A model generated the notes under the pieces. That model was not told where the DNA came from, made no database searches, and saw nothing but the letters and a program-made list of their open reading frames with translations. A program made the translations under genes and the position numbers. A stretch of DNA of 46,975 nucleotides. It comes from Anaerolineae bacterium (GTDB taxonomy: Bacteria > Chloroflexota > Anaerolineae > CG2-30-64-16). The stretch covers positions 1 through 46,975 of the forward strand of contig JAPKMS010000142.1 of the NCBI GenBank assembly GCA_026645775.1. The letters are read 5' to 3'. Positions 16,425 to 42,239 of this stretch are shown piece by piece; position 1 is the stretch's first letter; each line of letters opens with the position of its first letter.

Positions 16425-19400
16425 TTGAAATCCTCGCACAGGTTAGATATCCTTTGCATCCTGGCACTGCTGCTGCTGCCGCTCCTGTGGTTTGCGCCAC
16501 AGGTGCTGGGCGGCAAAACGCTGCTCCCTGTCGATAATCTTTACACCTTCAACCCCTGGCAGAGCTTTGCTGCGCAACAGGGCGTCGGTGTGCCGCACAA
16601 CGGCCTCATCAGCGACCTGATCCTGGAGAACTACCCGTGGAAGTCGTTCATCAGCGAGGCGCTCCGGACGGGCGACCTGGCAGGTGTGCTGTGGAACCCG
16701 CGGCTATTTGCCGGGGCGCCGTTCCTGGCCGCGGGACAGCAGTCCGCGCTCTACCCGTTGACGGCGTTATTCTACATCCTGCCGCTCTGGCTCGCTTACG
16801 GCGTCTTCACCTGGCTCCAGATCGGGCTGGCCGCGGCCGGCATGTACGTCTTTGCGCGGGTGCTGCGTCAGCGCCGGTTGGCCGCCATGCTGGCCGCGGT
16901 CGCCTATGCGTTCTCCGGCTTCTTCATTGTCAGCGTCAACTTCACGATGATCATCGCCGCGGCCGCCTGGCTGCCGCTGATCCTGGCGATGATCGAGATC
17001 GCCATCCGCAAGCAGGAGCAGAAAGGCGCCGGCCCCTTCTCGCCGGTGCCCTACATCGCAGCGGGCGCGCTCTTCTTGGGGATCGAGAACCTCGCCGGGC
17101 ACGTCGAAATCACCTACTACACCCTGATGGTCAGCGCGTTCTACGCAGCCTGGCGGTTGATCGCACTCCGGCGCCGGGTCGGCGCCTGGCGGCCCGCGCT
17201 GCGGTTGGCCAGTTGGTTGGGGGTGATGGTGGCACTGGGGATGGCCCTCGGCGGCGTGCAACTGCTCCCGCTGTTCGAGTTGGTGCGGCAGAGCTTCCGT
17301 GAAGGGTCGGCCAGCTTGCAACAAGTGCGGGATTGGGCCTGGCCCAGCCGGCAGATCATCACCTTCCTGCTGCCCGATGCGTTCGGCAACCCGACCACCC
17401 ACAGCTATTTCGACATCTGGCAGCGCGTCTGGACACCCGTGACGCAAAACGCACTCGGCGGCGAACTCACTGCCATCGATTGGGGCGTGAAGAACTACGT
17501 CGAGGGTGGGAATTACCTGGGCATTCCAACGTTGCTGCTGGCAGTCATCGCAGTCATGACATCCGTTATCCGGAATCGAGGCTTTAGCCGGTTTGTCGGA
17601 TTCCCCACGCAACCGGCTGAAGCCTCGATTCCGGAGCCATCGAACCGCCGTGGCTCCGTCTCCCTCTTTGCTGTCCTGGCCGTGCTCTCGCTCCTCTTCG
17701 CTTTCGGCACACCGCTGTACGCCATCCTCTACTATGGGCTGCCCGGCTACAGCCAACTGCACTCCGCGTTCCGCTGGGTGTTCCCCTACACGCTGAGCAT
17801 GGCGGTGTTGGCAGGGTATGGGCTGGACGCGTTAATTGCAAATTGCGAATTGCGAATTGCGAATTCACCTGCCTATCCAAAGCAATCTACGATCCGAATT
17901 CCGCAATCCGCAATCATCCTCGGTTGGTTGGCCGTGATCGCCGGGACCGGGGCGCTGGCCGCGGTGCTGGTCAGCATCTTCGTGCCGGGACCCTTCGTGG
18001 CGCTCGGCGACCGGCTGCTGGCCGCGTCCGATCTGGCGCGGCAGTTTGGCTATGCCGACGGCGCGATGGCCTGGAGCCATCAGGCGTTGGGGCTGGCGCG
18101 GTTTGGGGCGATGGCGTTGCTGTCGGGCGGCCTGTTGGTGTGGGGAACACGGAGACGCGGAGACAAGGAGACAAGGAGACAAGGAGACAGGGATCTCCCC
18201 CACACTCCCATCCTCCCACACTCCCATCCGCCCATACTCCCCCTCGCCGCGTCCTTCATCGCCCTGCTCATCCTCGATCTCTGGCTGTTCGGCCATCATT
18301 TCAACCCGGCGACCGACCCGGGGCTGTTGCAGTTCAAGCCACCGGCCATCGAGTACCTGCAAAGCAAGCTGGATGCGACGCAGCCGTGGCGGCTCACCAG
18401 CTTCGACGTGCCCGGCGAGAAGGTCTTGAACGCCAACGCGGCCATGTCGTACGGGCTGGAAGACGTACGCGGTTACGACTCGATCATCCCCAAGCAGTAC
18501 GTCGCGTACATGCGCCGCATCCAGACGCAAGATGACCTGCTCTACAACCGCATCGCGCCGATCTACACGCAGATCGGCGGCCAGCCCAACTATGACGCGC
18601 TGGATAATCCGTTACTGGATCTGCTGGGCGTCCGTTATGTCGTCACCACGCATGCGATCCCCAACGCCGGTTATGAGCTGGTCTACGATCAGGAAGTCAA
18701 GGTCTACGAGAACCGGGGCGCGTACCCGCGTGCCTTCATCGTGCCGGCGGCGGTCGCTGCGGCCGATCAAACCCAGGCGCTGGACCTACTGCAAACCGTG
18801 GATCCCGCGCAAACCGTGGTCATTGAAGGCCTCGCCGCAGATAAACTACCGGCGCCGGCATCGCCCCAGGTGCGCGAGGCGCGGATCAGCCAGCGCGGCA
18901 ACCGCGAGATCTTCGTGGACGTGAACATCAGCGATCGCGGTTGGCTGGTGTTCACCGACAACTATTTCGACGGCTGGAAGGCGTACCTGCGGCCGTTCGG
19001 GGTGGAGGGCGAGGGCGTCAACGAACAGGGCGAGTCCATCGAAGAGCAACTGTCGCTCTACCGGGCCGATGGCACGTTCCGCGCAGTGTACCTCCCGGAA
19101 GCGGGCCAGTGGACGGTGCGCTTCGTTTATTCCCCGCGCAGCCTGCTGCTGGGGCTCTACGCCAGCTTCCTGGCGGGCATCACGCTGCTCCTGCTGGCCG
19201 GCTGGTGGGCGTGGGGCCGTTTTTATCGCGGCGAGCGCAGCGAGATGGGCACCGTCGCCAAGAACAGCGCGGTGCAGATGGGCATGTCGTTGCTGAGCAA
19301 GGGCATCGATTTCGCGTTCGCGATGCTGCGTCTGCGCATACTGAGCCCAGCCGGCGAAGGCAGTTACGCGTTTGCGATCGCATTCTACGGCATCTTCGAG

Positions 19401-20744
19401 ATCGTGACCCGGTTCGGCCTGGGCACCCTGGTCACGCGCGATGTCGCCATTGACCGCAGCCGCGCCCGTCGGTTCCTGGCCAACACCCTCGCGCTGCGCA
19501 CCGGGCTGTGGCTGCTGAGCTTACCAGTGATGGCCGCCGTCGCGCTGAGCTATCGCGTCTTCCTCCATCAGCTCACCGGCGCCGAAGCACAGGCGATCCT
19601 GCTGTTCGCCGGCGCACTGCTGTTCGCCAATATCAGCGACGGCATCAGCTCGATCTTCAATGCTTATGAGGAGATGGAGTACCCGGCCGGCATCGCGACG
19701 GCAATCGCCACGGCCAAGGTCGCGTTGGGCGCGCTGGTGCTGCTGCCCCCCTTGGAGCTCGGTTTTGTGGGCCTGGCCGGCGTCTCGCTGGTGATGAACA
19801 TCGTGCAGATGATCTGGCTGTGGGTCGTGCTCCAGGATAAGGTGCTGGGCCGAGAAAACGCGGCGACGCGGGGACGCGGGGACGCGGGGACGCGGCGAGG
19901 GAGGCTCGGCCTCGACCTGCCCCTCCAGCGCTACATGCTGCGCGAATCCGGCCCGCTGATGATCAACAACCTGCTGGCGACGGTGTTCTGGCGGATCAGC
20001 CAGTTCGTGCTGCGCGGGGCGACCAACCCGGCGGCGCTGGGCATCTTCTCTGCCGGTGTGAAGTGGTTGGACGGCTTGAACGTGATCCCGGCGTATTTCA
20101 CCCTGGCCATCTTCCCGTTGATGAGCCGTTATGCGCAGGCGGGCAAGGATTCGCTGGTGAAAGGTTACCGGCTGGCGTTACAACTGCTGTTCATCGTCGC
20201 GTTGCCCATCGCCATCTTTTTCACCTTCGCCGCCACGCCGCTGATCCAGATCCTGGGCGGTGCGGCATATCTGCCCGACTCGGCCATCGCGCTGCGCATC
20301 ATGATCTGGTCGATCCCTATCGGCTTCGTGAACTCGGTGACGCAGTACGTGCTCATCGCAGTCAACCAACAGCGCACCCTGACCAAAGCGTTTATCATCG
20401 GCGTGCTGTTCACTGCCGCGGCCAACCTGATCTTCATCCCCCGGTTCGGCTACGTCGCCGCGGCCATCATCCAGATCCCGGCGGAGCTTTCGCTCTTTAT
20501 CCCGTTCGGTGTCGCCGTAAGACGCCACGTGGCGCCGATGAACTGGGCGGCGCTGTTGGGCCGGCCGCTGCTGGCCGCAGGGCTGAACGTCGCGGCCGTT
20601 TGGGGCTTGCAGCGTATCGGTTTGCCCCTGTGGCCCGCGCTGGCGATCGGCTTCGGCATCTACGCGGCGGTGCTCCTCGTCCTCGGCGTTTTCCGGGCCG
20701 AGGAATTTGGCGCCCTTCGCAGTCTTCTGAGACGCAGGCGGTAA
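16425..20744 (+). CDS. YfhO-like GT-C membrane protein fused to a Wzx-type flippase
   Basis: 1439 residues in two membrane parts. Residues 1 to about 935 look like a YfhO-family GT-C protein: several N-terminal helices, an exported loop with NLYTFNPWQSF and NYPWKSF, many helices, then a soluble domain (about 620-895) and a final helix. From about 938 (MGTVAKNSAVQMGMSLLSKG) to the end it is an oligosaccharide flippase of the MOP superfamily with about 12-14 helices. The parts are often separate genes; here they are one frame with no stop. The start is TTG at 16425 with GGAG 9 nt upstream. Four low-complexity insertions (residues about 382-403, 470-497, 575-606, 1147-1158) lie in loops and keep frame. 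The likely role is glycosylation or export of a lipid-linked glycan, using the upstream mannosyl donor. Confidence 0.82.
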   Translation: MKSSHRLDILCILALLLLPLLWFAPQVLGGKTLLPVDNLYTFNPWQSFAAQQGVGVPHNGLISDLILENYPWKSFISEALRTGDLAGVLWNPRLFAGAPFLAAGQQSALYPLTALFYILPLWLAYGVFTWLQIGLAAAGMYVFARVLRQRRLAAMLAAVAYAFSGFFIVSVNFTMIIAAAAWLPLILAMIEIAIRKQEQKGAGPFSPVPYIAAGALFLGIENLAGHVEITYYTLMVSAFYAAWRLIALRRRVGAWRPALRLASWLGVMVALGMALGGVQLLPLFELVRQSFREGSASLQQVRDWAWPSRQIITFLLPDAFGNPTTHSYFDIWQRVWTPVTQNALGGELTAIDWGVKNYVEGGNYLGIPTLLLAVIAVMTSVIRNRGFSRFVGFPTQPAEASIPEPSNRRGSVSLFAVLAVLSLLFAFGTPLYAILYYGLPGYSQLHSAFRWVFPYTLSMAVLAGYGLDALIANCELRIANSPAYPKQSTIRIPQSAIILGWLAVIAGTGALAAVLVSIFVPGPFVALGDRLLAASDLARQFGYADGAMAWSHQALGLARFGAMALLSGGLLVWGTRRRGDKETRRQGDRDLPHTPILPHSHPPILPLAASFIALLILDLWLFGHHFNPATDPGLLQFKPPAIEYLQSKLDATQPWRLTSFDVPGEKVLNANAAMSYGLEDVRGYDSIIPKQYVAYMRRIQTQDDLLYNRIAPIYTQIGGQPNYDALDNPLLDLLGVRYVVTTHAIPNAGYELVYDQEVKVYENRGAYPRAFIVPAAVAAADQTQALDLLQTVDPAQTVVIEGLAADKLPAPASPQVREARISQRGNREIFVDVNISDRGWLVFTDNYFDGWKAYLRPFGVEGEGVNEQGESIEEQLSLYRADGTFRAVYLPEAGQWTVRFVYSPRSLLLGLYASFLAGITLLLLAGWWAWGRFYRGERSEMGTVAKNSAVQMGMSLLSKGIDFAFAMLRLRILSPAGEGSYAFAIAFYGIFEIVTRFGLGTLVTRDVAIDRSRARRFLANTLALRTGLWLLSLPVMAAVALSYRVFLHQLTGAEAQAILLFAGALLFANISDGISSIFNAYEEMEYPAGIATAIATAKVALGALVLLPPLELGFVGLAGVSLVMNIVQMIWLWVVLQDKVLGRENAATRGRGDAGTRRGRLGLDLPLQRYMLRESGPLMINNLLATVFWRISQFVLRGATNPAALGIFSAGVKWLDGLNVIPAYFTLAIFPLMSRYAQAGKDSLVKGYRLALQLLFIVALPIAIFFTFAATPLIQILGGAAYLPDSAIALRIMIWSIPIGFVNSVTQYVLIAVNQQRTLTKAFIIGVLFTAAANLIFIPRFGYVAAAIIQIPAELSLFIPFGVAVRRHVAPMNWAALLGRPLLAAGLNVAAVWGLQRIGLPLWPALAIGFGIYAAVLLVLGVFRAEEFGALRSLLRRRR
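17570..17634. repeat. 22-bp inverted repeat inserted in coding sequence
   Basis: 17570-17591 (beginning CCGGAATCGAGG) and 17613-17634 (ending CCTCGATTCCGG) are reverse complements over 22 nt with one T/C difference that still pairs as G-U. The 21-nt loop is in frame. It encodes about RNRGFSRFVGFPTQPAEASI between two helices of the fusion protein. Confidence 0.85.
17834..17916. repeat. AATTGCG tandem repeat with inverted counterpart
   Basis: AATTGCA then three AATTGCG units (17834-17861), a short spacer, and CCGCAAT twice (17901-17914), which reads as the same unit reversed. The translation is IANCELRIANS...STIRIPQSA, a low-complexity stretch familiar from unrelated proteins of other genomes. 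Confidence 0.82.
18152..18243. repeat. GAGACAAG octamer repeat followed by CCCACACT-type octamers
   Basis: Five 8-bp units GAGACGCG, GAGACAAG (three times), GAGACAGG run 18152-18191. A run of related pyrimidine octamers (CCCACACT, CCCATCCT, CCCATCCG, CCCATACT) follows to about 18243. Translation is RGDKETRRQGD then HTPILPHSHPPIL. The purine arm and pyrimidine arm form an imperfect inverted arrangement. All in frame. Confidence 0.82.
19864..19899. repeat. GACGCGGG octamer repeat in the flippase part
   Basis: Four copies of an 8-bp unit GACGCGGG (last one degenerate), encoding TRGRGDAGTRRG in a loop of the flippase domain (about residues 1147-1158). The same unit recurs at 28969-29016 on the other strand. 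Confidence 0.8.
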
Positions 20745-28340: not shown

Positions 28341-28350
28341 AGCTTTCCTC

Positions 28351-28374
28351 TGATTCGCTGATTCGCTGATTCAG
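28351..28374. repeat. TGATTCGC octamer repeat, three units
   Basis: TGATTCGC twice and TGATTCAG, at 28351-28374, fill the 36-nt gap between the chromate transporter and dipeptidase genes and end next to the dipeptidase ribosome binding site. Confidence 0.82.
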
Positions 28375-28931: not shown

Positions 28932-28946
28932 TGAACCTCCGTGTAA

Positions 28947-29016
28947 CGTGGAGCGTGGAGCGTCGCCCCATCCCCGTGTCACCGCGTCCCCGCATCCCCG
29001 CGTCCCCGACACCCAA
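28947..29016. repeat. CGTGGAG heptamers and CGTCCCCG octamers
   Basis: CGTGGAG twice (28947-28960), then about five 8-bp units of CGTCCCCG/CATCCCCG type from 28969. The array fills the gap between the epimerase and transporter genes and runs into the 3' end of the epimerase gene, supplying its last residues (RGRGDAGTR). Confidence 0.82.
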
Positions 29017-41822: not shown

Positions 41823-42239
41823 TTACCAGTCGCTGCGGCCGCCGCGGCTGCCGCGATCACGGCTGCTGCTGCCGCCGCTGGAACGACCGCCGCCGTAGCC
41901 ACCGCTGCCGCCGCTGGAGCGACCGCCACCGTAGCCACCGCTCGTGCCGGCCGGGCGCTGGGACTTGAAGCAATCGGAGCAGTAGACCGGCTTGTCACCG
42001 CGCGGCTGGAACGGAACTTCGGTTTCCTTGCCACACTGCGCGCACACGGCCGGGTACATCTGGCGATCGCCACGATCGGCGAAACCGCCGGCCCCGCGGC
42101 TGGCCTTGCGGGCCGCGCGGCAGCTCGGGCAACGGGTCGGTTCGTTGGTGAAACCCTTCTGGGCGTAGAATTCTTGTTCGCCGGTGGTGAAGACGAACTC
42201 ATTACCACAATCTACGCAAACGATAGTCTTGTCTTGCAT
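41823..42239 (-). CDS. Double zinc-ribbon protein with RGG-like tail
   Basis: 138 residues. Two zinc-ribbon motifs: CVDC with CPSC (25 residues apart), and CAQC with CSDC (17 residues apart, the C-x2-C-x17-C-x2-C pattern). The C-terminal third is Gly/Ser/Arg-rich with two exact copies of GGYGGGRSSGGS and ends SRDRGSRGGRSDW. Such tails bind RNA or drive condensation in RGG proteins, so nucleic acid binding is likely; the precise target is unknown. The ATG at 42239 has GAGGAG about 10 nt upstream. The 249-nt divergent gap to the helicase gene has the helicase promoter at its far end, and no clear minus-strand promoter. Confidence 0.82.
   Translation of the reverse strand: MQDKTIVCVDCGNEFVFTTGEQEFYAQKGFTNEPTRCPSCRAARKASRGAGGFADRGDRQMYPAVCAQCGKETEVPFQPRGDKPVYCSDCFKSQRPAGTSGGYGGGRSSGGSGGYGGGRSSGGSSSRDRGSRGGRSDW
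41868..41939 (-). repeat. Two 36-bp tandem copies in the Gly-rich tail
   Basis: Residues 101-112 and 113-124 are both GGYGGGRSSGGS. The DNA copies differ at a few synonymous positions. Confidence 0.85.

Follow-up and report, generated by a model that had tools for sequence, protein, structure and literature searches.

A polysaccharide-flippase gene with four inserts

The window, that is, the whole stretch of 46,975 nucleotides that was analysed, is contig 74 of the 4.38 Mb draft genome of an Anaerolineae bacterium, a metagenome-assembled genome in 478 contigs. On its plus strand, a gene at positions 16425-20744 encodes a protein of 1439 aa for which Pfam and relatives indicate a YfhO-like N-terminal half (PF09586 at residues 107-296) fused to a Wzx-type polysaccharide flippase (PF01943 at residues 944-1236). 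The protein was matched in 60 of the 60 relatives searched, and many of these carry the same fused protein at full length. Four inserts lie in frame in this single ORF: a palindrome, arrays of AATTGCG and of GACGCGGG and, between these two, the paired arrays GGAGACAA/CCCACACT. Short-repeat peptides in bacterial proteins are commonly written off as noise. A sequence-only reading of this DNA had nevertheless pointed to four features interrupting one membrane-protein gene, each in a predicted loop, and had quoted from them the peptides IANCELRIANS, GDKETRRQGD, HTPILPHSH and RGDAGTR. We find the four features at those places in one open frame, the four peptides in its translation, and a smoothed hydropathy below the transmembrane threshold used at all four insert sites, as corresponds to hydrophilic loops. 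The same reading took them as four insertions of one kind, which they are not: the palindrome belongs to a dispersed family and the other three are tandem arrays, so that the four inserts are two different things. Moreover, it did not see that insert 2 has a second arm, that insert 3 is made of two arrays with unrelated units, or that the arrays follow a rule of polarity.

Insert 1 (17569-17635) is a copy of this lineage's dispersed palindromic repeat, an element of ~67 nt with 25-bp arms and a 17-nt loop, whose consensus, from an alignment of 29 copies, is TCTGGAATCGAGGCTTTAGCCGGTTTCTC-loop-AACCGGCTGAAGCCTCGATTCCGGA. The inverted repeat previously noticed is therefore real, although its arms (17569-17593 and 17611-17635, 96% complementary) are 25 nt long and not 22. 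In the sequence of this genome examined the family has at least 47 copies, with matches from E = 2e-15 downwards, and 17 of the 47 lie within ORFs. Two same-family genomes have half-copies, and one of these lies in the orthologue of the host gene, at another position (L012:362-389). An Rfam search with the palindrome gave no family above threshold and two sub-threshold miRNA hits only, and the flanks of the 47 copies, all filled sites read by eye, showed no obvious target-site duplication. In being a dispersed palindrome that sits in frame inside ORFs, insert 1, and insert 1 only, resembles the Rickettsia palindromic elements, which however belong to another lineage; the likeness is one of description. 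REP/REPIN elements with their RAYT transposases are likewise small dispersed palindromes, but the GTAG-type head that marks them is absent from our consensus; two Y1 transposase matches were found in this genome. On two other contigs of the assembly (304 and 316; L090 and L096) several palindrome copies, ~100-280 bp apart in L090, have a common flank (GTCAGAT...TTCGGGATTCGCGAT...), which suggests a larger repeat or a tandem duplication.

The remaining inserts, all described on the plus strand, are short-unit arrays. Tandem-repeat detection delimits in insert 2 a G-rich arm, the 7-mer array AATTGCG (17834-17865), to the right of which a short, inverse-complementary C-rich arm, GAATTCCGCAATCCGCAATC (17896-17915), stands out with a partner score of 11.5 and folds with the array. 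Insert 3 joins a G-rich 8-mer array of GGAGACAA (18147-18193), again from tandem-repeat detection, to a C-rich 8/16-mer array of CCCACACTCCCATCCT (18199-18241) whose unit is unrelated to that of the G-rich arm. Insert 4 is an 8-mer array of GACGCGGG (19858-19895) with no clear C-rich partner, its partner score being that of the background. Shuffled sequences used as a control contained no arrays of comparable strength at any period from 4 to 15. Tandem repeats of 36 and 21 nt found elsewhere in the window (41868-41942 and 2758-2818), in probable coding sequence, are of a different, codon-phased kind.

A population of heptamer and octamer arrays

The arrays of the host gene belong to a large population. 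In 0.40 Mb of this genome analysed with TRF, periods 7 and 8 were the two commonest, with 58 of 150 rows against 4 rows for periods 9-11, and octamers were as common as heptamers. Genome-wide figures were drawn from ~0.67 Mb of stretches of this genome, where 74 period-7/8 arrays were found; the resulting density of ~11 per 100 kb is an upper estimate, because part of the sample was chosen for containing hits. Arrays are rarer in ORFs than expected (37 of 74 inside, for a coding fraction of 85%), as would be the case if most insertions into genes were purged. Purifying selection for frame, as earlier proposed, is a different matter. Stop trinucleotides occur in 7 of 32 intragenic arrays versus 39% of intergenic strands (p = 0.15), and since this depletion is not significant and an intact ORF was a precondition of the sample, selection for frame is not demonstrated; stop depletion was consequently dropped as a proof of it. 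Other large ORFs are also affected, such as the one at L071:45-7854, with 4 arrays and a palindrome.

The sequence-only reading called the encoded peptides familiar as low-complexity scars of unrelated genomes, and the same units do recur there. An identical 26-nt array of GGAGACAA (the exact 26-mer GGAGACAAGGAGACAAGGAGACAAGG) is present in at least 113 stretches of named genomes from at least seven phyla: Cyanobacteria, Chloroflexota, Planctomycetota, Acidobacteriota, Verrucomicrobiota, Bacteroidota and Chlorobiota. Isolate genomes such as those of Hassallia, Calothrix and Nostoc show the same array architecture. Two genes of the minus strand flank a further octamer array, CTGATTCG, in the window (28350-28372), and its unit, AATCAGCG, recurs in L093 as well as in L123 of genome G006.

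Array pairs run from G-rich to C-rich

Wherever two arrays are neighbours, their order is almost invariable. Adjacent pairs in this genome are G-rich then C-rich in 11 cases and the reverse in none, and those of same-family genomes in 14 and none (25:0 altogether), while the two types are balanced overall, with 29 G-rich and 37 C-rich arrays in this genome and 44 of each in the same-family genomes. An intergenic example in the window (28940-29008, detected by array scan) has a CGTGGAG... array followed by CCCCGCGTC... between two minus-strand genes. Among the 113 GGAGACAA loci listed, mostly from other phyla, inverted partners were found 19 times to the right and never to the left. When flanking arrays of any unit are counted at these listed loci, the right side has 40 C-rich and 4 G-rich arrays and the left side none and 16, respectively, and the other array pairs within them run 19 times from G to C and once in reverse. 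A search of 301 genomes of the phylum for exact 15+15-nt inverted-pair patterns found none of either polarity, a pattern too strict to be informative. The polarity is identical when read on either strand and so characterises the pair rather than the replicated strand. We regard it as practically certain that neighbouring arrays share this order across phyla and unit types, and an order common to phyla and to unrelated units points to one shared generating process, symmetric about its centre and acting on both strands. Such a shared process makes the origin of the arrays testable, and the polarity gives annotators a means of spotting insertions within ORFs.

The two arms are near-complementary to each other in 18 of 55 arrays, compared with 0 of 55 for control sequence at a distance of 500-620 bp. 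Many pairs, nonetheless, have arms of unrelated units, as in insert 3 of the host gene, ACTGGAA with AATCCCC (L061), CTGGAAA with CAACATT (L071) or GGTGACAA with CCGCAAT (L285). These observations bear on the best of the alternatives, in which plain replication slippage would amplify chance seeds in unconstrained loops and a hairpin template switch would make the inverse arm, with no need for a break or a special enzyme. Loops are tolerant, a third of the arrays have a complementary arm nearby, and the excess of heptamers in bacteria has been ascribed to polymerase footprint and slippage (in work cited in PMC4692102). Slippage with template switching explains the matching arms but not the polarity, since a template switch would yield both orders equally and the counts are 25:0 and 19:1. 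Neither the many pairs of unrelated units nor the identical 26-nt arrays in at least seven phyla are what it would lead us to expect, and we consider this account rather unlikely, though worth keeping in sight.

A fixed polarity would come naturally to the ends of a transposon, and the pairs could then be miniature elements whose terminal inverted repeats are the tandem arrays, serving as transposase-binding sites. Spacers such as GAGAATAATTCT are indeed common to some cyanobacterial loci. In this genome, however, every listed spacer and unit is different, and the two arms of a pair can be of unrelated units. Array load has no clear link to IS200-type Y1 transposases, and G006, the genome richest in GGAGACAA, yielded none of them. 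With no significant association, an IS200/RAYT-type transposase was discarded as the cause, and the miniature-transposon explanation as a whole appears improbable.

Relation to known repeats

Part of this picture is already published, namely the excess of heptamers, the STRRs and the convergent pairs of one G-rich heptamer in Xanthomonas (PMC4692102). Rehm et al. 2015 described G-rich heptamers genome-wide, GGGAATC in Xanthomonas and GGGGA(C/T)T in Nostoc, with 70 and 75 cases in Xanthomonas of two convergent arrays, which corresponds to G-rich then C-rich, and few convergent pairs reported in Nostoc (PMC4692102). The arrays studied here share with them the genome-wide distribution and the convergent G-then-C order. 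They differ in that the heptamers of Rehm et al. are one unit per genome, of the G-quadruplex type, whereas here many 7- and 8-mer units coexist in a genome, arms can be of different units, about half of the arrays lie in ORFs, and the same polarity is found in many phyla. By the quadruplex criterion of G-tracts of at least three, only GACGCGGG qualifies, as AATTGCG and GGAGACAA reach GG at most. The STRRs of cyanobacteria include three heptanucleotides in Calothrix, according to work cited in PMC4692102. Like the present arrays, the STRRs of Calothrix and Nostoc are dispersed tandem heptamers, but here octamers are equally common. To our knowledge, neither polarity nor the pairing of mixed units has been described for STRRs. 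A more distant likeness is offered by the interstitial telomeric sequences of mammals, short G-rich repeats reported to be inserted in double-strand break repair (PMC7215372). We use it as a working likeness for short G-rich repeats inserted when breaks are repaired; those sequences are hexamers of a eukaryotic telomerase, whereas the arrays here have no fixed unit. We know of no telomerase for them. In a search of the open-access literature we found no description of a polarity rule that crosses phyla, includes octamers, joins arms of unrelated units and operates inside coding loops.

Recurrence and turnover in orthologues

The same four loops of the host protein carry arrays of differing units in the orthologues of about eight genomes, the present one and other genera included. 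The loops repeatedly hit are those around residues 382-408, 475-487, 581-598 and 1151-1156, and the orthologues concerned are L009, L010, L012, L013, L014, L017, L029 and L037. For instance, L014 has GGGTATT...CCCAATA at site 1, GGATTTC...CCGCAAT at site 2 and the pair GGCAACAA...GGTCACCT at site 3, and L010 has GATTGCA...CACGCAA at site 1. Several orthologues are free of arrays, among them L011 from the same family, and the sequence, length and unit of the inserts are not conserved. The earlier proposal of a gain therefore stands, the inserts being lineage-specific, and the same inserts were not seen as conserved domains in distant lineages. In the congeners G006 and G009 (~78-92% DNA identity over aligned blocks) different units occupy several shared positions between conserved flanks, from which it follows that the sites persist and their content turns over. 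It is from these differences between two congeners that the gain may be called active, as had been suggested. The orthologue in L012 (1-5769, genome G005) has in-frame inserts of great length, a repeated stretch (VHAGRGATADENV / VHAGRGATGDENV) and its palindrome half-copy among them, and that in L021 (genome G039) is split by a single TGA near insert site 1 into ORFs of 406 and 999 codons.

Repeated hits in the same loops, and several arrays in one gene, are what an adaptive explanation would invoke, with repeat tracts in loops tuning the length of a surface-polysaccharide transporter or making it phase-variable. Set against it are the lack of conservation in sequence, length and unit, the orthologues without any array and the other large ORFs that are hit too, such as L071:45-7854. 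Moreover, every array-bearing full-length copy that was read is in frame, so that no off state was seen, and adaptive inserts seem to us very improbable. An artefact of a fragmented assembly of 478 contigs can practically be dismissed, given the intact coding frame and flanks and an architecture that recurs both in independent assemblies and in isolates such as Hassallia, Calothrix and Nostoc.

A possible origin at broken ends

The reading that we favour, with somewhat more belief than doubt, is that the arrays are insertions specific to lineages and for the most part non-adaptive, which loops tolerate, and that their repeats were added at a break or stall to the 3' ends of the two sides. Its parts are not equally firm. 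Dispersal, tolerance in loops and polarity are practically certain, while the step of 3'-end addition is held tentatively, as the polarity fits this mechanism but does not prove it. A break or a stalled fork would expose 3' ends, and short G-rich repeats would be added to the one on each side, through slippage or by a dedicated polymerase. Since the two sides would be extended independently, the arms may differ in unit. The extended ends would then be joined, and the top strand would be left with G-rich DNA to the left of the centre and C-rich DNA to its right, the arrangement of a head-to-head telomere fusion. Those insertions that leave the ORF open, in tolerant loops, would survive with no function for the protein being needed. 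Over 60 genomes, two unrelated units vary in concert (rho 0.58, with 8 of the 10 richest genomes in common), a sign of a common cause acting in trans. Two observations go against 3'-end addition: the complementary arms (18 of 55) are more directly explained by a hairpin or template switch, and insert 4 stands without a C-rich partner.

This genome and 57 of 59 relatives, all the array-rich ones among them, lack Ku, and the sole family member with Ku is almost free of arrays. Classical NHEJ is thus not the joining route, Ku/LigD NHEJ was ruled out as the cause, and joining would have to be Ku-independent. If the arrays do represent end repair without Ku, this would matter greatly. We would go further only as speculation, and a doubtful one: many bacteria may own an activity that adds 7/8-nt G-rich repeats to 3' ends at breaks, the capped ends being then joined, in a telomerase-like or reverse-transcriptase-based end healing that leaves G-then-C scars. 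A lead to the enzyme, and only a lead because phylogeny was not controlled, comes from the RVT_1 reverse transcriptase, which is commoner in array-rich genomes (9 of 11 versus 13 of 49 among G000-G059, p = 0.001) and keeps, with two units counted, a partial rank correlation with array load of 0.38 after genome size.
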